Virus record (IMG/VR): IMGVR_UViG_3300047352_000503
Location: 1 to 23,418 of that record
Length of the DNA: 23,418 bases
Source of the DNA: a virus
Strand: one strand, 5' to 3'
In this document: positions 7,764 to 21,092 of the stretch, piece after piece
Layout of the letters: the number at the start of each line of letters is the position of its first letter
How positions within the stretch are numbered: position 1 is the first letter of the stretch
Position numbers and translations under genes: made by a program
Notes under the pieces: model-generated
What the model was told of the DNA's origin: nothing
Seen by the model: the letters and a program-made list of their open reading frames with translations, nothing else
Databases searched by the model: none

Positions 7764-8020
7764 AACACTACAACTATATCAGAAGATTTTATAACATGAT
7801 AAGCTGTTTTGTTTATTTCTATAATATGTCCGGCATGTTTATCAAAATATATTTTATCTTTTTGTTTTATGCCTTCAACTTCATCACCTACTGATATTAC
7901 TTCTGCTTCTATATATCTTACATCATCTTTATGAGCATCCGCTAAAAGCAATCCTCCTTCTGTTTTAGATATTTCTTTAGCTGTTTTATTTATTATTAAA
8001 TTTCTACCTATTGCCTTCAT
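7760..8020 (-). CDS. groES: Phage co-chaperonin GroES
   Basis: An 86-residue Cpn10 lid for the GroEL ring. MKAIGRNLIINKTAKEISKT opens the barrel. TEGGLLLADAHKDD is the mobile loop with the GG-[IL]-[IL]-L hydrophobic contact for GroEL. EAEVISVGDEV follows, then the DKIYFDKHAGHIIEINKTAY turn and a final SSDIVVVL in place of the usual E-x-DILAV. ATG at 8020 was preferred over a TTG one codon earlier. It overlaps the groEL end by 17 bases and the next gene by four, so translation is probably coupled. The order groEL then groES reverses the usual bacterial groES-groEL. Confidence 0.85.
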   Translation of the reverse strand: MKAIGRNLIINKTAKEISKTEGGLLLADAHKDDVRYIEAEVISVGDEVEGIKQKDKIYFDKHAGHIIEINKTAYHVIKSSDIVVVL

Positions 8021-9557
8021 CAACTCTTAAATTATTGATTACACAATCTGTAGATAATATTGTAGTTGCAACAGATACTGCATTTGATAATGCACTTTTT
8101 GTAACTAGCAGTGGATCTATAATACCACTTTTAATAAGATTACAACTTTTACCTGTTATTACATTAATACCAGTACCTTCACCTAAAAATGGTCCATATG
8201 TAATACCCGCATTACTTAATATTGTTTTATATGGATATTTAATTGCATTTATAAGTATTTTTTCAGATGTTGATGGATTTTTAATTGAATCAGCCGCATT
8301 ATGTAATGCTATACCTCCACCTGGAACAATACCTTCTTTTATTGCAGCTTTAGTTGCACATATTGCATCTTCAACCCTATCTGATTTTTCTTTTAATTCT
8401 ATATCTGAATTAGCACCTACTTTTACTATTGCTATTTTAGCTGATAAACGAGCTAAGCGCTTTTCTAATCTAATTATTTCTGCAGGAGGTTTATTTTTAT
8501 TTAAATCTTTTTTTATTTTTTTTATAGATTTTAAAACTTCTCCTGAAGGTTCAGAAACTTGAATTATAGTTTCTTCATCTGTTGTAATACTTTTTAAGCA
8601 TGTCCCTAAAAATTCTGGTTTAATAAAATCTAAATCATCACCTAAATCTTCATTAATTATTGTTGCTCCCGTTAACATAGCTAAATCAGTTAACATTTCT
8701 TTTTTAGTTATCCCATATGTAGGAGCATTTATAACATTAACTTTTATATTACCCTTTACTTTATTCATGGCTAAAGCGGCTATAACTGGTTGCTCAATAT
8801 CTGCTACTATTAATAAAGGTTTATTGTTTTTTATAACGTATTCTAATATACTTTGTATTTGTCTTACATTTTCTACTGGTGATTCAATTAATAAAACTTC
8901 CGGATTTTCTAATTCAGCTGTTCTATTTTCTTTACTTGTTATAAAATGAGAGTTTGTTAATCCCTTTTCATATTGAACACCATCTACAATTTCAATTTCT
9001 GTTTCTGCAAGTGATGACATTTCCATCATAACTACACCTGTTTCATCTACTGCTCTAAAAGCATCACCAATTATTTTACCAAGATCAGAATCATTATTAG
9101 TTGAAATAGTAGCTATTTGATCAATCATATTTCCTTTAACAGGAACTTTAATTTTATCTAAATATTTTAAAGTCTTTTTAAGAGCTAATTCAATCCCAAA
9201 TTTAACATCTCTTATACTTATACCTTTATGTATTTTAGAGGCTTCATGAAGTATTGCATGAGCTAATACGGTAGCTGTAGTAGTTCCATCCCCTGCTTCT
9301 TTTACTGTTTTACGAGCTGCTTCTTTTAAAAGTGTTGCTCCCATGTTTTCAACTGGATCTAACAGTATAATACTATCTGCTACAGTTACTCCATCTTTTG
9401 TAATAACAGGTTTACCTGATCCATCTTCCAGCATTACACACTTACCGCCAGCTCCTAATGTAGAGCTGACAGCATTAGTGAGTTTATTTATACCTTCAAA
9501 TACTTTTTCCCTAGCTTCATTTCCAAAGCTAAGGTTTTTGACGATTGCGTCTGACAT
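8004..9557 (-). CDS. groEL: Phage chaperonin GroEL (Cpn60)
   Basis: A 517-residue ATP-driven folding chamber. The equatorial ATP site is intact: TKDGVTVA (D55), AGDGTTTATVLA (D90, T92-T94) and VEDAICATKAAIKEG (D397), aligning with E. coli D52, D87 and D398. GIVPGGGIAL follows as expected. The apical domain contains ENPEVLLIESPVENVRQIQS and KPLLIVADIEQPVIAALAMN, and NAPTYGITKKEMLTDLAMLTG closes it. The protein is about 30 residues shorter than bacterial GroEL and lacks the Gly-Gly-Met C-terminal tail, ending TDCVINNLRVDEGNR. It probably folds phage structural proteins; the partner GroES is encoded next. Sequence departs clearly from cellular GroEL, so recent host capture is unlikely. Confidence 0.93.
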   Translation of the reverse strand: MSDAIVKNLSFGNEAREKVFEGINKLTNAVSSTLGAGGKCVMLEDGSGKPVITKDGVTVADSIILLDPVENMGATLLKEAARKTVKEAGDGTTTATVLAHAILHEASKIHKGISIRDVKFGIELALKKTLKYLDKIKVPVKGNMIDQIATISTNNDSDLGKIIGDAFRAVDETGVVMMEMSSLAETEIEIVDGVQYEKGLTNSHFITSKENRTAELENPEVLLIESPVENVRQIQSILEYVIKNNKPLLIVADIEQPVIAALAMNKVKGNIKVNVINAPTYGITKKEMLTDLAMLTGATIINEDLGDDLDFIKPEFLGTCLKSITTDEETIIQVSEPSGEVLKSIKKIKKDLNKNKPPAEIIRLEKRLARLSAKIAIVKVGANSDIELKEKSDRVEDAICATKAAIKEGIVPGGGIALHNAADSIKNPSTSEKILINAIKYPYKTILSNAGITYGPFLGEGTGINVITGKSCNLIKSGIIDPLLVTKSALSNAVSVATTILSTDCVINNLRVDEGNR

Positions 9558-11064: not shown

Positions 11065-12309
11065 TTAACTAAATGTTATTGTTCCTGTTCCTGAAGTAAA
11101 TGTAGTATATTTATCTGTTCCACCACTAACTGTTCCGTTTAAAACTCCTGTGCCTAAACCAGTTCCTACTGTTATTGAGTGAGCGGAAGGATAACGTAGT
11201 ATAACTATTCCTGATCCTCCTGATGGTATAGTTGCGCCAAATGCACCTCCACCAGCTCCCCCGCCGGTATTAGGAGTTCCATTATTTAAAGCTCCAGCAC
11301 CAGGTCCACCATAATATAGTCCAGTGCCTCCACCACCAGAACCTCCAGTTCCAGGTGTTCCAGCACTACCGCTATTTTGACTACCACCACCACCACCACC
11401 TGCATAAAATACAGCAGTTCCTGTTATAGAATTAGAAGCACCAACACCACCGTTACCAGCAACACCAGCACCTGCACTTGCAGCTGAAGCACCAACACCA
11501 CCTGCACCACCACCTCCACCGCCTGTGTAATCTGGATTAGATGTGCCTCCAGCACCTCCAGAATTACCTTGAGATGGGGTTGTAGAAGGTGTATTACCAG
11601 CACCTCCACCTGTTGGCGAATTAAAGCTTCCTCCACCACCAGAGCCACCAGAGTTAGGAAGACTACCTCCACCTTCACCTCTTCCGCCGCCACCGCCAGC
11701 GCTGGTTATTGTATTAAAAACAGAATTATCTCCATTAGACCCGTTTGTGCTAGTGCCTACTCCACCAGCCCCTCCACCACCAACTGTTACTAGATAGTTA
11801 GTTGCGGAATTTATAGCAACAGCTGTGCCTCCATAATTAGTTCTGTATCCACCAGCTCCTCCAGCGCCTCCGCCAGAACCATCACCGCCACCGCCACCGC
11901 CTGCTACAACTAAATAATATGCAGAAATAGTACTAGGTGAATTTACTAATGCATTAGTGCCATCGTTAGCAGCATATTCAGCTAACCAACCTTGAGCTGT
12001 CCCAGAATATATAATACTTACAGCACCTCTTTGATAGTCTATTTTAACATCATTTGCAGATCCATTTATATTAGCTTGAGCTGTTATTTTTATATTATTA
12101 GTTTGTGCGGTACCTGCATAATCGACTATACTTACTATGTCTCCAACAGCAGGGGATGGAGGCATTGTTACAATTATTTCATTAGAAGTTGTATTAACAA
12201 AATAGCCTTGTGATGCTACAGATTGAAAATTACCTGTTTTAACAGTTGCTTGCCAGTCTATACCTAAACCTCCTTGTATAAGTTCTTTTGTTACTTTTGT
12301 TAATGCCAT
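11065..12309 (-). CDS. Glycine-rich tail adhesin A, 414 aa
   Basis: Residues 1-125 form an N-terminal module with DWQATVKTGNFQSVASQGYF, VTMPPSPAVGDIVSIVDYAG and a closing AVSIIYSGTAQGWL. Residues 130-370 are a glycine-rich domain starting YYLVVAGGGGGGDGSGGGAG and ending SGIVILRYP. A short beta-rich C-terminus ends GTGTITFS. The VVAGGGGGG...ILRYP framework is widely seen in phage receptor-binding tips, where polyglycine helices display variable loops. The upstream neighbour is a clear paralogue with one base between the genes, so the pair arose by tandem duplication. Probably surface recognition. Confidence 0.75.
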   Translation of the reverse strand: MALTKVTKELIQGGLGIDWQATVKTGNFQSVASQGYFVNTTSNEIIVTMPPSPAVGDIVSIVDYAGTAQTNNIKITAQANINGSANDVKIDYQRGAVSIIYSGTAQGWLAEYAANDGTNALVNSPSTISAYYLVVAGGGGGGDGSGGGAGGAGGYRTNYGGTAVAINSATNYLVTVGGGGAGGVGTSTNGSNGDNSVFNTITSAGGGGGRGEGGGSLPNSGGSGGGGSFNSPTGGGAGNTPSTTPSQGNSGGAGGTSNPDYTGGGGGGAGGVGASAASAGAGVAGNGGVGASNSITGTAVFYAGGGGGGSQNSGSAGTPGTGGSGGGGTGLYYGGPGAGALNNGTPNTGGGAGGGAFGATIPSGGSGIVILRYPSAHSITVGTGLGTGVLNGTVSGGTDKYTTFTSGTGTITFS

Positions 12310-12310
12310 G

Positions 12311-13486
12311 TTAATGTGTATAAGTACCGTCCCCGGTAAATTTTAAAATTGTTACTCCCGAAACTGTTGATTGATCAACTGTTACTGTACCTGTTGTAGT
12401 TCCTGAATAATTAGCAGTTGGCATTCTTAAAACAACAATACCCGAACCTCCTGCAGCTGCATAAGATCCACCCCTTCCTGCTCCATCTCCCCCATCTCCT
12501 GTATTGGGAGCCCCTGGAGTTGCACCTCCTACTGGTAAATCAGGGTATCTAGGTGTTCCGTTACCACCTACAGCATAAGTTATTGAAGTTCCTGTAATAG
12601 AAACAGGTAAACCAGGGCCTGCACCAAACCAGACATATTTATTAGGTGTAACTGTTTGACCTGCACCACCAGCGCCGCCGCCGCCGCCACCACCATCATC
12701 ATAAGGATTAGAGCTTCCTGTGAGACCATTTGCTCCAGCATAACCTTGAGTGACTGGAGAAGTTACAGCTGCACCTCCACTTCCAAATGGAGTTGCACCA
12801 CCACCAGATCCGCCATCAGCACCATTATTTCCAACACCTTGACCCCCTGCGCGACCGCCACCTGTTGATATTACTGAAATACTTCCACCTACTATAGATG
12901 AATTAGTACCCGAAGTTTGAGCACCTCCACCGGGTCCTACTGTTATTGTATATGTTGTTCCTGGTGATAAAGCAATTTTAGATTCATTAGATGTTCCTCC
13001 CCCAGAAGATGTTCCAAATGAAGTTCTTAATCCACCGGCACCACCACCACCACCACCATTGTCTTGGCCACCTCCAGCACCTCCAGCAACAACTAAAAAA
13101 TCAACTTCACTTGTATTAGGATTTAATGCTGATGTGCCTTCATTAGCAGCAGCTGAAACTACCCAGCCTTGAGTTACATCAGAATATGAAATACGTATAG
13201 CTCCTCTAGTATAATTTACTACTTTTGCTGCACTGGCACCTTCTATATTATTAGAGCTAGTTAAAATAATTTTATTAGTAGAAGCAGTTCCTGCATAATC
13301 TATAATGCCTATTGAATCGCCTACAATTGGTGAAGATGGCATTGTAACAGTAATACTGCCACTTGTAGTATTAACAAAATAACCATTACCAGTGACTGCT
13401 GTAAAGCTTGATGTTTCTACAGAACTTTGCCAATCAAGACCAAGTTCTCCGTCAATCATAACTGGGGGTATTTGTGTTAATGCCAT
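12311..13486 (-). CDS. Glycine-rich tail adhesin B (paralogue of A), 391 aa
   Basis: Same architecture as its downstream neighbour: MALTQIPPVMIDGELGLDWQ, a beta module with GYFVNTTSGSITVTMPSSP and GAIRISYSDVTQGWVV, then a glycine-rich domain from FLVVAGGAGGGQDNGGGGGG to GSGIVVLRMPTAN, and a C-terminal TILKFTGDGTYTH. The N-terminal modules of A and B align almost throughout, while the glycine-rich loops differ, which suggests duplication with diversification of host-binding surfaces. Located between the 332-aa fibre protein and adhesin A. Confidence 0.75.
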   Translation of the reverse strand: MALTQIPPVMIDGELGLDWQSSVETSSFTAVTGNGYFVNTTSGSITVTMPSSPIVGDSIGIIDYAGTASTNKIILTSSNNIEGASAAKVVNYTRGAIRISYSDVTQGWVVSAAANEGTSALNPNTSEVDFLVVAGGAGGGQDNGGGGGGAGGLRTSFGTSSGGGTSNESKIALSPGTTYTITVGPGGGAQTSGTNSSIVGGSISVISTGGGRAGGQGVGNNGADGGSGGGATPFGSGGAAVTSPVTQGYAGANGLTGSSNPYDDGGGGGGGAGGAGQTVTPNKYVWFGAGPGLPVSITGTSITYAVGGNGTPRYPDLPVGGATPGAPNTGDGGDGAGRGGSYAAAGGSGIVVLRMPTANYSGTTTGTVTVDQSTVSGVTILKFTGDGTYTH

Positions 13487-14511: not shown

Positions 14512-17500
14512 TTATTGTCCTATAATCACCCAACCTTTTGTTGCGCCTGAATATATTATTTCAAAACTTGCAGTTGCATTATTTAATGTTAAATCTGTTG
14601 CGCTACCCATTATTAAACTTCCGTTTCTTGCAAGTACACACGTTGCAACCCCTGACAAGTTACTAATTTTTATTGAATCTCCATTTGCAGGCGTAGCGGG
14701 TAATGTTAATGTTAAATTTGCTGTAAATACATATAATGTATTTTTAACTCCTGTTATACTTGTTGATATTGTTTGAGTAGCATAATTAGAAGGAGTAATA
14801 GTAACAAGTGATGCACTTGTAATAATCATGACTTCTATAATATCTCCTGTTGCTGGTGCACCTGCAGTAAATGATAATGTACTACCCGCTATATTATATG
14901 TAGTTTTATTTTGATATACACCATTGATATATACATTAGTAAAATTAATATTTGCTGGTGCTGCTGGTAAATTAAATGCAATGGTTGTGCCATCACCTGT
15001 AGTTTGATAATTAGTTAAACTATTTGCCCCTGGAACTACACTACTTGCTACTGTAGTTATTACTTCAATAGAAAGTCCTGTTGGAGGTGCAGTAGTAAAT
15101 GCTAATGTTGTACCTGTTACAGTATATGTTTCTTTTTCTTGATAAACACCATTTATAAATACATTAGTAAATAAATTTGAAAATGGAGCATTTGATAATA
15201 TAAAGTCAGTTGTTGTACCATCACTTGTATAATCATTTTTTACAAGAGAAGAAGTAACACCACCTATATAAGATTTTATTTGTGAAAGATTTGCATGCTT
15301 TACAGTATTCCCATTGCTGAATAAAATATCATCCGCGTCTACAAGTGTATCTGATGTACCATCTGCTGCTGATAATATTATATTACTTGATGTTGTATAA
15401 TCAGGTGTTATTTCTGTAGTAACAACAGGATTAGAATATGAAATAGTGCTTGTTAAACCTTTAGAATTGCCTATTATTCTTAGTTGTCCTGCATCTGGAA
15501 CAGTTTGAGGATTATTATTTCCTGGCGCTGCAGCATCTGCAGAAACATCAAATGAATATGTAGAAGGTATTACCCATTGATTATCTCCTCGTAAAAATGA
15601 AGCTGATCCTGGTGTACCTGTAGCATTTAAATCGCCTGTTAATGTTATAGCACCTGTTTGTGATGTATTAGGAGTAAAGTTTATAAATGTTCCATCAGTT
15701 GCTGTAAATGATGTAAATGGTCCAGCTGCTCTTGGGTCTATAACTTCACCACCCATTCCTGAATGATTAGTACAATAATAATAAAGCTTAGGAGTATCTT
15801 GTTCTAATATTATTTGCGTATACGCACCAGCTGATCCAGGAGTGCCTACTGCTGTAACGCCTGTTGTATATGGAGCGGAAGGTGTATTATCAGCATTAGT
15901 AGAAAATCTTAATGGATGTGTACTATTAGAAGAATCAGATTGATCTAATCTATATGTTATACCCGCTACAAGTTCTAGTGAAATCTGCTGTGCGCCATCT
16001 ATAAAATATTTATTATTGCCTCCTACATTTTGAACTGTTACTATTATTTCATTTATTTCTTCCGAAGCAAGTGTTATATTATTACCTCCCGCTTGTGTAA
16101 TAGTCATGTTACTACCAGCTGTAAATTGAACTGTAGAATCATCAGTTCCTGATGTAGAGGTTAAATTTAAATCTACATTATTTCCGTCGGTAGTTGCATT
16201 TAAATCATAACCTTCACCAGTATTATCTACCCAATCAATTGCAGACCCTGTTGATGATAATATTTGACCAGCTGTTCCAATACCGTTATTAGTATCTGTT
16301 ATGCTTGTTGGTTTAATACTACCCGCTGTTGTTATTAAACCGGTAGTCTCAGTCATTATAGAATCACTTACGGAATTGGTTGCAGAAAATACAGGAATTC
16401 TACCTATAGTACCACCACCTGTTATTGTGCTTGTAGGGGTAGCAGAAGTAATTCTACCTTTTGAATCAACTGTAATACTAGGTGCAAAATAAGTTCCTGC
16501 AGTAACACCTGAATTATTTAAATTTATAGTCATATCATTACCGCCCGATTGAGTAATTTCCATTGCGGATCCAGCGGTAAATTGAACAGTAGATAATAAT
16601 AAACCTCCAGCTTCTAATCTCATGTCTACATTAGATCCATCTGTTACAAGCCCTAACGTTGGATTTAATGCTGATGTTGACTGCAGCGATCCAGTACCAT
16701 CTATAAATTGTGTATTTGTACCTGCTCCTGATAATGTTAATGTTCCTGAATTAGTTACAGGGCTTCCTGTTACTGTAAAAGCAGATGGTGCCGCTAAAGC
16801 TACACTTGTTACTGTACCAACCCCGGGATTATCAGTAGCGCTTGTTATTCTACCTTTAGCATCTATTGTTAAAAATGGAGCTGTGTAGGAAGCAGCCGTA
16901 ACACCCGTATTTGGTAATGAAACTTCTCCTGTAGAAATCGATAATCCTCCCGCTGTTGGAAAACTTGCTATTCCTTTAACTGTATCAGTAGCTACATCAA
17001 TATTCCCTTGTACTTCTGTCCAATCTGAAATTGAAGTAGGATTATCAATATTAGCTATAACTAAATCTCCTATGTTTAATGTAGGGTTCCAAAAGCCACT
17101 AGCATCCCCTGCTACTGTAACAGCGTAAGCCCAACCTTTTTTAATACTATTTGGGCTAGATGTTAGATCAGGGGTGTTTGTAGATGCGTTGTAACCTCCT
17201 TGAAACACTAAACTACCTACAATATTTTGATCAACATAATTTTTTGTAGCCGCATCTTGTGCACTTGTAGGATCTACAATGTTTTGTATTCTATTATTAA
17301 TATTTGTTGTTACATAAGTAACTATATCCCCACCTGTTGCAAGATTTGCCCCTGCTGCTGCCACCGCAGCTGTATTTGCTGCTACTGTAGGATCTGCAGT
17401 TGTACCTCCTATTGTTATTGTATTTACATTGCCAGATGTTACACTGTCTACAGCACCATATCCTAAACCTGCAATATATGATACGATGTCTGCACCAGTT

Positions 17501-18651
17501 GCTAAAGCAGTAGTACCGGATCCTGTTATAGATTGTATTACTGCACTTAATGTAGTGGTAGGTCCTGATCCATTGGTAACAGCTAATTGATTAGGTGTAT
17601 TAGTGTTAATTGTAACCACTCCTGATGCGGGTGCATTTATCCAAGCAATTTCTTTATCTCCATTTACAGTCGTACTAGATAATAATTGACCATCGGTACC
17701 GTTGTTACCAGCTCCGTCTGTAAGATATTTATTTATTTCTGCACCTTGTGTACTAATATTGCCAGCTACTGATATAGTAGTAGCTATTTCTGTCATTATA
17801 GAATCTCCTACTTCTGAAGTAGCTATCCATTTAGTTATTTTACCAGCAGTACCCGTACCTATTACTGTACCACCTCCACCTGGGGTTGCCCATACATTAT
17901 CGCCACGTAAAAATGTTTGATTAGAAGCTGAACCTGTTGCAGATAAATCAGCTGTAACCGTTACTGTTCCTGTTGCTGCTGTATTAGGCGTTAAATTTAT
18001 ATAAGTACCATCTGTAGTTGTAAGACTATTAACTGGAGTAAACCATTGATTGTCTCCACGTAAATAATTACTATTCCCAGCCACACCTGTAGCTGAAAGA
18101 TCAGCTGTTACAGTTACCGCACCCGTTGATGCAGTGTTGGGTGTTAAATTTACAAAAGTACCATCGGTTGTAGTTAATGTATTTACAGGTTCAACCCATG
18201 AATTATCACCCCTTAAAAAATTGGTAGCTGAAGGTGTACCTGTTGCTGAAAGTGAAGCTTGCAGGTTTATATTATTATTTGCTCCTGCTGTTTCTGTTAG
18301 GGTAATGAATGTGCTATCTAATGGAGTTATACCTGCAATACCAGCATTATCTATTATAATACTATTAGCAGTACTATTTGTAAGTGATATACCAGTTCCT
18401 GCAGTTATTGCTACTGTTCCAGCAAGTGCACCTGTACCATCTGCTAATTGTATAGTAGAACCATTACCTTGAGCAACACTTGAAAGAGTAAAAGAATTAC
18501 CAGGTAGAACTGCTGCTAAATCAGCAATCTTAAATTGTCTTGTGGGATTTTCTCTTTCAGGGTTAGGCGATGCAGCATCATAGGTTACTGTACCTATTAT
18601 AAAATCTGATGCCTTCGGCGTAGCCTGAGGATAACTATAAATTATTGCCAT
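14512..18651 (-). CDS. Giant tail fibre with FLRGDN-W repeats and a cupredoxin-like domain, 1379 aa
   Basis: Begins MAIIYSYPQATPKASDFIIG, the same docking start as the 807-aa fibre. Three 51-residue repeats end in [FY]LRGDN-W (145, 196, 247), and a fourth copy lies at about 980-1026. A DPTSAQDAATKNYVD segment (about 465-480) is a classical trimeric fibre motif. Residues about 880-972 form a separate module with H912, then C960-T-N-H963-S-G-M966, the order of a type-1 copper site. Two related modules near the C-terminus each carry NV[FY]INGVYQ-K-TY. The last 80 residues (LTLPATPANGDSIKISNLSG ... FEIIYSGATKGWVIIGQ) repeat the N-terminal module of the glycine-rich adhesins. Likely host recognition. 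Confidence 0.85.
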   Translation of the reverse strand: MAIIYSYPQATPKASDFIIGTVTYDAASPNPERENPTRQFKIADLAAVLPGNSFTLSSVAQGNGSTIQLADGTGALAGTVAITAGTGISLTNSTANSIIIDNAGIAGITPLDSTFITLTETAGANNNINLQASLSATGTPSATNFLRGDNSWVEPVNTLTTTDGTFVNLTPNTASTGAVTVTADLSATGVAGNSNYLRGDNQWFTPVNSLTTTDGTYINLTPNTAATGTVTVTADLSATGSASNQTFLRGDNVWATPGGGGTVIGTGTAGKITKWIATSEVGDSIMTEIATTISVAGNISTQGAEINKYLTDGAGNNGTDGQLLSSTTVNGDKEIAWINAPASGVVTINTNTPNQLAVTNGSGPTTTLSAVIQSITGSGTTALATGADIVSYIAGLGYGAVDSVTSGNVNTITIGGTTADPTVAANTAAVAAAGANLATGGDIVTYVTTNINNRIQNIVDPTSAQDAATKNYVDQNIVGSLVFQGGYNASTNTPDLTSSPNSIKKGWAYAVTVAGDASGFWNPTLNIGDLVIANIDNPTSISDWTEVQGNIDVATDTVKGIASFPTAGGLSISTGEVSLPNTGVTAASYTAPFLTIDAKGRITSATDNPGVGTVTSVALAAPSAFTVTGSPVTNSGTLTLSGAGTNTQFIDGTGSLQSTSALNPTLGLVTDGSNVDMRLEAGGLLLSTVQFTAGSAMEITQSGGNDMTINLNNSGVTAGTYFAPSITVDSKGRITSATPTSTITGGGTIGRIPVFSATNSVSDSIMTETTGLITTAGSIKPTSITDTNNGIGTAGQILSSTGSAIDWVDNTGEGYDLNATTDGNNVDLNLTSTSGTDDSTVQFTAGSNMTITQAGGNNITLASEEINEIIVTVQNVGGNNKYFIDGAQQISLELVAGITYRLDQSDSSNSTHPLRFSTNADNTPSAPYTTGVTAVGTPGSAGAYTQIILEQDTPKLYYYCTNHSGMGGEVIDPRAAGPFTSFTATDGTFINFTPNTSQTGAITLTGDLNATGTPGSASFLRGDNQWVIPSTYSFDVSADAAAPGNNNPQTVPDAGQLRIIGNSKGLTSTISYSNPVVTTEITPDYTTSSNIILSAADGTSDTLVDADDILFSNGNTVKHANLSQIKSYIGGVTSSLVKNDYTSDGTTTDFILSNAPFSNLFTNVFINGVYQEKETYTVTGTTLAFTTAPPTGLSIEVITTVASSVVPGANSLTNYQTTGDGTTIAFNLPAAPANINFTNVYINGVYQNKTTYNIAGSTLSFTAGAPATGDIIEVMIITSASLVTITPSNYATQTISTSITGVKNTLYVFTANLTLTLPATPANGDSIKISNLSGVATCVLARNGSLIMGSATDLTLNNATASFEIIYSGATKGWVIIGQ

Positions 18652-18668: not shown

Positions 18669-21092
18669 TTAAGGTATACACGTTTGACAGTTTCCACTAA
18701 ATGTTCCAGATCCTTGATTCCAAAGTCGATATTGAGAATTACCTCCAAATGTTGAATAATATCCTGATGGAGCATAAGTTGACGTTCCACAACCATTTTG
18801 TGTAGCATACAACTTTGTAGCACTACAGAAATTATTATTATCTGCATATACTGTAATAGGATTACCACAAACAGCAAAAGAACAACAAACACTAGTAACT
18901 TTGTAATACATCTGCATTGCATAACAAGGACTATACAAAATAGCACCTGTTATTGTAATATCTATTGTAGCATTAACACTCTCTGTTCCTGTTGCTGGAA
19001 GAGCGGGATTAAAAGTTGGCCCTGAAGTCCATATATAATCTTGATCTAATGTTATAGTAGGTGTAAAACTATATTGTTGTGGAGGTAAACCAACAACCGC
19101 TGCTGGAGTAGTTACAGTAAAGTTATTGCCACCTGTTATACCACTAGTTATTACATTAGGTGTTATTGTTATATTTTGAGCAACTGCTTCAATTGTACCT
19201 GTTATAGTTGTTGTAACTGTTTCAGATGTTGCAGAAGTCCCCTGGGCATTTACTACTGTTGGTCCCGATGTAAATTGAAACCCACTGTTAGGAGTTACTG
19301 TAGTATTAAAGCTATATGAATTTGGACAATTAGCAGAATCCGTTGCACCTGTTTGATCACCACCTATTGTATATGCTGCAGTAGGTGTAGTTCCTGAGTT
19401 ATTTATTATATTATCTTGAATAGATAAAGTAGTCACACAAGTTGAAGGTGTTGCTGCTTGTATGGTTCCAAGAATTATAGTTGTTACAGTTGTATTAGCT
19501 AGATTACCATGAGCATTATTAATAGAAGGGCCTGATGCCCATTCATATCCTGCATTTGCTATAGCTTGTGTTGCAAATGAAAATCCATCCCCACAATTAC
19601 CAGATCTTGTAGACCCTGTAGTATCACCTTGTAAAGTAAATTCTGTTCCTGTTACTCCACTAGCATTTACATTAAGGGTTACTGTACACTGTGGAGCTGT
19701 TGCAGCTGCTATAGTTCCAGTAACTGATATGGGTACATTTTGATTACCTGTAGCTGTACCTGTGATTGTTCCGCTCGCCGATCCGTTAAAAAACGGCCCG
19801 GATGTAAAAGTAAATCCTGAATTTGCAGAAGCCGATGCTGTAAATGAATAGTTATGAGGACATGTTCCTCCATCAGTTGCAGGAGTTACACTTACCGATC
19901 CATTACCACCACCAGATATATTATTAGTAATAACTGCAGTTGCGGTACACGTACCGGCCGGTATCGCAGCAATCGTACCTGTCAATGTGTTTGTAACTGT
20001 TGCATCTGCAGATATAGTGCCAGAAGGGTTGGTAGCGGCGAAGGCGCTCGAAAAATATTTTCCACTAGCAGGACTAGCAGTAACTGTAAATGCATAAGGT
20101 GTTCCGGCTACACCAACTTGTGTTGCACTATTTACAGGGCCTGTTAAGGTATAGTCGGCTCCTTCAACACCCCCTATAATATTGTTAACTAAGCTTTGAA
20201 TAATTGTAAAGCTAGGGTTAGATGCTATAACTACATATAAAGTATTAGGATCTTTAGTTCCTATAGCTGTATATTCAGCTGATGTTAAACTTACAACCTG
20301 ATTAACCACACCTGTAGTTGTAAATGTATCAGTATTGTTTCTTACATCACCATCATCTCCTGCATCTATATATGTTTTTATCAAATCTACCGCATCTATT
20401 GGTATGGTGCTAAAAGATGTTGATTTTACATTACCTGTTGATACTTGATTAAAAGGAATGTAATCTGTTTGGGTTGGAGTTGTAGGTGTTTCAAATACTC
20501 TTATATAATTATTAGGACCATTAGGTTCAACCTGCAATTCAGGGTTAACCTCAGCTACCCCTGTTTCTATTGCAAGTCCTTTACCAGATTCCACACTCGT
20601 TACTGTCCCCAACGGCACGTTAGCCGCAGAAATTTCTATGCCATTAAATCCGTCATCAGTTAATGTGATGTACGGTCCTGGCTGTAGACTCACTATAGTC
20701 TGCAATAAATCAGATCCGGTGAGTAATATGTTTGCATTTGTGCCACTTTGAGTACTTCTAAGCACATACGTAGTGTTATCTGCGTTTACAGCTGCCCAAG
20801 TATTGTCACCACGAAGGAATGTGGTAGCAGAAGGGGCTCCACCTGCAGTAAGTCCAGCAGTAATTGTCCCAGTTGTAGTAATAGGGCCGCCCGATAAGGA
20901 AACAAAAGTGTCTCCAGTGGTCAATATATTAGTAACGGTACCACCGCCTGGAACACTTGGGTTCACAAGGTCAATAATACTCTGTATCGTAAAGTTTTTT
21001 GTTACATTATTCTTGCCATCTGCATCTGTACCCAATAATAGGTCAGTCGCCACAGGATTCGTCTGGTTAGGATAGCTATAAATTATTGCCAT
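18669..21092 (-). CDS. Tail fibre with five Ig-like repeats and a Cys-rich tip, 807 aa
   Basis: Residues 1-45 match the docking start of the 1379-aa fibre (MAIIYSYP...D.LLGT). One FLRGDNTW repeat lies at 92-99, and the LTSAEYTAIGTKDPNTLY module at about 269-286. Residues about 292-718 hold five repeats of about 85 residues, each with a [YF]SF strand, an xSGP core and a T[GI]TI[AQE] end. The middle three each have a cysteine pair (C382/C411, C469/C500, C552/C589). The last 85 residues contain eight cysteines (723, 736, 737, 742, 756, 768, 802, 805) around YAPSGYYSTFGGNSQYRLWN. This looks like a disulfide- or metal-stabilised receptor-binding tip on an Ig-like stalk. Confidence 0.8.
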   Translation of the reverse strand: MAIIYSYPNQTNPVATDLLLGTDADGKNNVTKNFTIQSIIDLVNPSVPGGGTVTNILTTGDTFVSLSGGPITTTGTITAGLTAGGAPSATTFLRGDNTWAAVNADNTTYVLRSTQSGTNANILLTGSDLLQTIVSLQPGPYITLTDDGFNGIEISAANVPLGTVTSVESGKGLAIETGVAEVNPELQVEPNGPNNYIRVFETPTTPTQTDYIPFNQVSTGNVKSTSFSTIPIDAVDLIKTYIDAGDDGDVRNNTDTFTTTGVVNQVVSLTSAEYTAIGTKDPNTLYVVIASNPSFTIIQSLVNNIIGGVEGADYTLTGPVNSATQVGVAGTPYAFTVTASPASGKYFSSAFAATNPSGTISADATVTNTLTGTIAAIPAGTCTATAVITNNISGGGNGSVSVTPATDGGTCPHNYSFTASASANSGFTFTSGPFFNGSASGTITGTATGNQNVPISVTGTIAAATAPQCTVTLNVNASGVTGTEFTLQGDTTGSTRSGNCGDGFSFATQAIANAGYEWASGPSINNAHGNLANTTVTTIILGTIQAATPSTCVTTLSIQDNIINNSGTTPTAAYTIGGDQTGATDSANCPNSYSFNTTVTPNSGFQFTSGPTVVNAQGTSATSETVTTTITGTIEAVAQNITITPNVITSGITGGNNFTVTTPAAVVGLPPQQYSFTPTITLDQDYIWTSGPTFNPALPATGTESVNATIDITITGAILYSPCYAMQMYYKVTSVCCSFAVCGNPITVYADNNNFCSATKLYATQNGCGTSTYAPSGYYSTFGGNSQYRLWNQGSGTFSGNCQTCIP

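Follow-up and report, generated by a model that had tools for sequence, protein, structure and literature searches.

A tail fibre protein encoded in an IMG/VR virus record of 23,418 bases (the window, analysed over its whole length) carries a segment that almost certainly has the cupredoxin fold, and within which a predicted ligand set of two histidines, a cysteine and a methionine very probably forms a functional metal site. The explanation that best accounts for the data, and which we regard as fairly probable, is that of an intact metal-binding cupredoxin with a ligand loop of amicyanin length, serving as an accessory module of the virion surface. The features concerned are the following (aa positions are those of the fibre protein).

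14512-18651, minus strand: tail fibre gene, 1379 aa (ORF translation, PHROG tail-fibre matches, Pfam stretches)
15733-16059, minus strand: predicted cupredoxin-fold domain, aa 865-973, 109 aa (AlphaFold2, structural matches, Copper-bind profile match)
15916-15918, minus strand: H912, predicted first His ligand, in an HPLRF motif directly before a strand (36/36 viral nr90 domains)
15772-15774, minus strand: C960, predicted thiolate ligand, at the end of the strand YYYC (36/36 viral nr90 domains)
15763-15765, minus strand: H963, predicted second His ligand (36/36 viral nr90 domains)
15754-15756, minus strand: M966, predicted axial Met ligand (35/36 viral nr90 domains)
15715-16209, minus strand: block of aa 815-979, a short linker repeat plus the cupredoxin domain (no counterpart in the fibre of L258/L261)
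15547-15714, minus strand: fibre repeat TSFTATDGTFINFTPNT...FLRGDN, downstream of the domain (same type as the repeats near aa 145, 196 and 247)

Translation of the minus-strand gene placed H912, C960, H963 and M966 exactly where a preliminary description of this DNA had located them. That description had assigned the domain to approximately aa 880-972; the site does lie inside the domain, which is however larger (approximately aa 865-973). Since the entire fibre contains merely two cysteines (960 and 1338) and three histidines (912, 963 and 1119), the cluster of H, C, H and M does not reflect background composition. The C-terminal part of the protein contains stretches matching DUF4183 and Phage_T7_tail in Pfam, and one type of fibre repeat, marked by [FY]LRGDN, was found at aa 145, 196, 247 and 1019, positions which place the cupredoxin domain upstream of the last of these repeats. 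The terminase of the window was nearest to those of phages of flavobacteria (62.6% to an unclassified spring phage and approximately 40% to Flavobacterium phages), and the host of the virus is therefore probably a member of the Bacteroidota.

AlphaFold2 modelling of aa 862-976, using an alignment of 34 window and locus sequences, yielded a model with a mean pLDDT of 93.6 and a pTM of 0.86 that contained nine strand segments of at least three residues, in keeping with the cupredoxin fold, a Greek-key beta-sandwich of seven to eight strands. In the numbering of the model, His51 precedes strand 53-56, Cys99 closes strand 95-99 and Met105 is located before strand 106-110. When the PDB was searched with Foldseek, rusticyanin ranked first (E 3.8e-4, probability 1.00), with TM-scores that were moderate and did not exceed 0.58. 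Cupredoxin-fold copper proteins filled 41 of the top 50 rows, among them further rusticyanins, CueO laccases and nitrite reductases. All of the 50 rows listed by VIA-align were copper proteins, headed by the N-terminal cupredoxin domain of the Hyphomicrobium copper nitrite reductase (2dv6; Z 8.7, 3.0 A, 100 residues), and including rusticyanin (2cal; Z 7.9, 3.2 A over 106 residues) and auracyanin A (Z 7.5, 2.9 A over 97 residues). As judged by the ends of the aligned VIA ranges, M105 of the domain is near M148 of rusticyanin. The layout of the strands and the superposition would thus be compatible with a normal type 1 site, and it is from these that we infer the ligand distances. A second, independent model, built for a relative of the domain in a SAR86 lipoprotein (pLDDT 85.5), gave plastocyanin 1b3i (probability 0.99) and pseudoazurin 2ux6 (0.96), the latter carrying an engineered amicyanin loop, as the first two Foldseek hits, and the Hyphomicrobium nitrite reductase and rusticyanin again as the top VIA matches. 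Because the TM-scores are moderate and a VIA Z of 7-9 by itself could mean a common beta-sandwich, the assignment of the fold rests on the consistent list of matches taken together with the sequence evidence.

Pfam scans of the whole fibre and of the domain gave no match to the Copper-bind family (PF00127), and among 34 relatives three showed weak matches (best E 0.039). For a comparison of profile with profile, Copper-bind proteins were collected from genomes, aligned and compared with the domain profile using hhalign, which returned a probability of 94.3% (E 1e-7) for an alignment that spans the domain and has the cysteine and the second histidine in register. In a control with a smaller, pseudoazurin-like set, the reversed phage profile scored 0.2% and the forward profile 78.1%. 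A Woeseiaceae relative (L094/L193), a cadherin-type lipoprotein whose C-terminal domain clearly belongs to the family of the phage domain, reached 24.0 bits with PF00127 when genomes were searched and 20.4 bits when the whole protein was scanned, on either side of the cut-off of 21.2, and is, on these scores, a bridge between the phage domain and the Copper-bind family. A phmmer search of the PDB with the fibre domain gave no match, and a profile search of the PDB, with copper nitrite reductase first (E 0.17) and then antibodies, was too weak for use. One relative matched PF25489 (At5g54830-like) with an E of 4.5e-5, under the cut-off of that family; weak Pfam matches to DUF1833, CBM_4_9, PilE_C and others were taken as chance.

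The type 1 copper set consists of two histidines, a cysteine and an axial methionine or glutamine on a cupredoxin fold. Among 36 non-redundant viral domains from our first viral scan (mean pairwise identity 53%, minimum 19%), 3 of 111 columns were invariant, namely the first histidine, the cysteine and the second histidine; the chance that four predicted sites would cover all three is approximately 4/221,815. Both synonymous codons were in use at each of the histidine and cysteine positions, which argues that the residues, not the DNA, are under conservation. In SAR86, an unanchored profile search found H, C and H intact in 26 of 27 domains. The statements on conservation rest on this search and on the first viral scan, which is the least motif-biased viral set as most of its search peptides lacked the ligands; the second viral scan and the scan of genome contigs were anchored on YxCxxHxxM, and their biased counts were not relied upon. 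H..C-x2-H-x2-M is retained by nearly all homologues, diverse as they are, and the lack of ligand conservation that the preliminary description named as a refutation is excluded. A chance motif is ruled out by the same conservation, and a free cysteine serving in a disulfide is ruled out as well, the domain containing a single cysteine that always occurs together with the two histidines. Together with the confident beta-sandwich model, the blue-copper matches in the PDB and the similarity to the Copper-bind profile, the conservation of the ligands bears out the cupredoxin reading first suggested from the sequence.

Natural cupredoxins vary in loop length and axial residue around a fixed His-Cys-His. 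Three SAR86 copies (L224, L236 and L244) have an axial glutamine in place of methionine, and the loop is one residue longer (C-x2-H-x3-M) in a divergent viral group (L063-L070), variation which, as far as the sequences indicate, is typical of type 1 copper sites. Glutamine is the natural axial ligand of stellacyanin (PMC4059628). The SAR86 copies with axial glutamine would be useful natural controls, as would the first copy in the SAR86 protein L226, in which all of H, C and H were lost together.

The loop of the fibre domain, CTNHSGM, follows the spacing C-x2-H-x2-M, which is that of amicyanin; plastocyanin has C-x2-H-x4-M. Of the motif originally described as amicyanin/plastocyanin-type, the ligand order and the amicyanin spacing hold, and the plastocyanin spacing does not. 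Sharing this loop does not by itself make the phage domain an amicyanin, which is a periplasmic electron carrier of methylamine dehydrogenase, whereas the phage domain is part of a fibre protein. The plastocyanin/azurin family (PF00127, which includes amicyanin and pseudoazurin) resembles the phage domain in its predicted fold and in the ligand order H...C-x2-H-xn-M, with the cysteine at the end of the penultimate strand, the methionine before the last strand and a profile match of 94%. The phage domains differ from this family in falling below Pfam detection, in having HP[LIF]RF around the first histidine and a longer preceding stretch (DQSDSSN), and in being part of a virion protein, members of the family being free periplasmic electron carriers. 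The best structural matches, rusticyanin, auracyanin A and the N-terminal domain of the Hyphomicrobium copper nitrite reductase, share 12-15% identity with the phage domain, and the ligand loops of rusticyanin are longer.

Comparison of closely related fibre genes showed the domain to be present in some and absent from others. The fibre is 92% identical to that of L258/L261 up to aa 814, patchily similar to approximately aa 979 and 64% identical afterwards; in the gene of L258/L259/L261 another fibre repeat takes the place of the linker and the cupredoxin (aa 815-979). The domain is present in L252-L254 and absent from L255 and L258/L259/L261. Near-identical fibre genes are thus maintained in its absence, and on this comparison the domain is an optional, removable addition between fibre repeats. 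This bears on a purely structural use of the metal, in which copper or another soft metal would cross-link the loop end of the sandwich and keep the module folded in seawater, with no part in redox chemistry or recognition. Such a lock would be simple and is compatible with the strict conservation of the ligands and with the position of the module inside fibres. We nevertheless consider it unlikely, since fibres without the module exist and since the SAR86 copy in which H, C and H are replaced retains its fold score (91 bits), suggesting that the fold is probably independent of the metal. The same two observations weaken the proposal of the preliminary description that the site stabilises the fibre; its proposal that copper or iron uptake receptors are exploited is a possible one.

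The accessory surface module that we favour is widespread. In a tblastn search of 50,697 phage records, 109 matched, most of them cyanophages; these infect Synechococcus, Prochlorococcus and other cyanobacteria, the remaining records were phages of Pelagibacter and Methylophilales together with a small number of marine single-cell or unclassified phages, and no match was found under further host names in these records. At least 592 IMG/VR contigs contain the domain, and PLSDB plasmid records gave no match. PHROGs containing members of the family are annotated as tail fibre, baseplate wedge, baseplate wedge-tail fibre connector and virion structural protein. The domain is located within a virion protein encoded directly downstream of the portal gene in cyanophage S-TIM5. 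Pelagiphages HTVC028P and Baldr have it in the tail fibre, close to the C-terminus, and pelagiphage Mosig has it in a gp10-like fibre protein; the ligands are kept in all four phages. One viral protein (L040:3983-5032) holds three domains in tandem, each with a complete ligand set. Cyanophages also encode plastocyanin (petE), itself a cupredoxin; petE is a separate metabolic gene of photosynthetic electron transport, in contrast to the virion domain described here. Among bacteria, 95 of the 203 genomes from the SAR86 order contain the domain, where its carriers are small lipoproteins as well as large proteins with cadherin or Ig-type domains; further copies belong to proteins of Litorivicinus, Porticoccaceae, Woeseiaceae and Burkholderiaceae. 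Bacterial carriers include lipoproteins and proteins bearing cadherin, dockerin or DUF4214. A recurrent SAR86 protein of approximately 636 aa contains a remote relative of the domain in many genomes (E 1e-6 to 1e-12). In a tree of 75 domains, which is weakly resolved (few columns and many open forks) and in which phage and bacterial labels were assigned by inspection, phage and bacterial copies were intermixed, the well-supported branches requiring the label to change no fewer than four times.

As the domain moves among fibres, baseplates, other virion proteins and bacterial surface proteins, a role in surface contact appears most likely, and we tentatively propose accessory adhesion as the main role of the module. 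Ig-like accessory domains of tailed phages are optional beta-sandwich modules of fibres, baseplates and further virion proteins that are spread by horizontal transfer; they are without a type 1 metal site, unlike the phage cupredoxin. The fibre would be made in the apo form in the host cytoplasm, where copper is scarce, and copper would for this reason probably be taken up on or after lysis. Bound copper might then lock the loop face or form part of a recognised surface, and the resulting accessory patch might, with less confidence, aid attachment of the virion to components of the host surface, in the manner proposed for the Ig-like domains of other virions. A point against the loading of a fibre made in the cytoplasm is that cupredoxins are normally metallated outside it.

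The nearest idea in print is that of iron-binding HxH motifs in T4 gp37 and marine phage fibres, the 'Ferrojan/Trojan horse' (PMC11705849). There too a metal is placed in a phage fibre, and a part in marine metal chemistry and in the use of receptors has been proposed for it; those fibres differ chemically in holding iron by HxH pairs, whereas the cupredoxin fibre has a site with Cys and Met in a single chain. The repeated His-x-His of the iron type is absent from the 1379-aa fibre, the histidines of which are merely those at 912, 963 and 1119. A copper version, in which copper or other metal-uptake systems of the host recognise the metal of the fibre, could draw on the published iron precedent for marine and T4 tail fibres (PMC11705849) and on the fact that most of the carriers infect marine picocyanobacteria or other bacteria of the open ocean. 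The domain also occurs in baseplate proteins and in a post-portal virion protein, beyond the tips of fibres, and we consider this version improbable.

The metal of the predicted site is likely to be copper. Metal identity is unreadable from sequence, and assembly in the cytoplasm, which has little free copper, would speak for zinc or iron; a Met or Gln as fourth ligand is however atypical of those metals and the ligand set is that of type 1 copper, leaving zinc or iron as the natural metal with a low probability. Electron transfer is the classical task of type 1 sites, and all of the ligands, the axial Met among them, have been retained, as would befit a device that swaps electrons with partners on the host surface or in the periplasm, or that senses redox state while the virion attaches or its DNA enters; tandem domain copies, however, were found in merely 12 of 186 ORFs, and such a device seems quite improbable. 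That the domain is a metal-free relic, a cupredoxin fold used as a plain Ig-like decoration with a motif kept by common ancestry, is highly improbable: beta-sandwich decorations are common in phage virions, but the ligands are invariant although the remainder diverges to 19% pairwise identity, synonymous codons change and loop lengths vary around them, which contradicts the 'structural relic' considered in the preliminary description.

Blue-copper domains are known as electron carriers and as parts of oxidases. We found no publication in the open-access literature describing a cupredoxin as a structural part of virions, although InterPro may already label such domains automatically. The cupredoxin type is old, and its occurrence as a widespread, ligand-complete module of marine virions would, by that search, be new. 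The present analysis provides a name and a probable ligand chemistry for a segment of cyanophage and pelagiphage proteins that are now labelled 'virion structural' or 'hypothetical'. Since the module recurs across hundreds of viruses from the sea, and in surface proteins of marine bacteria, copper may be present on the exterior of many ocean viruses. A loaded site would put copper on the surface of marine phage lineages numbering in the hundreds, among them those that infect the most abundant bacteria of the ocean, providing a testable link between trace-metal chemistry and infection that parallels the iron hypothesis for phage tails. A broader proposal, that a large share of marine tailed phages bear copper-loaded domains, exchange them with surface proteins of SAR86 and other bacteria, and use the copper for attachment or entry, is doubtful; if true, viruses would have a metal chemistry that is new for them and would contribute to the particulate copper in seawater.

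Several other features were noted around the fibre gene. A second fibre protein, encoded at 18669-21092 on the minus strand, has the N-terminus MAIIYSYP in common with the cupredoxin fibre and a Cys-rich C-terminus. After the fibre genes lie two adjacent glycine-rich paralogues (Pfam Gly_rich_2; 11065-12309 and 12311-13486, minus strand), which could be exchangeable tip adhesins. The virus also encodes a GroEL-type chaperonin (8004-9557, minus strand; phrog_5725, E 3e-126), which is approximately 41% identical to that of the best-ranked phage records. Six exact copies of AAAYACGT-N7-TGGATAATA were found on the plus strand in an AT-rich block between 21493 and 23193, most of them ahead of a very small plus-strand ORF; 0.02 copies would be expected by chance with two mismatches allowed, and the element is probably a repeated early phage promoter.
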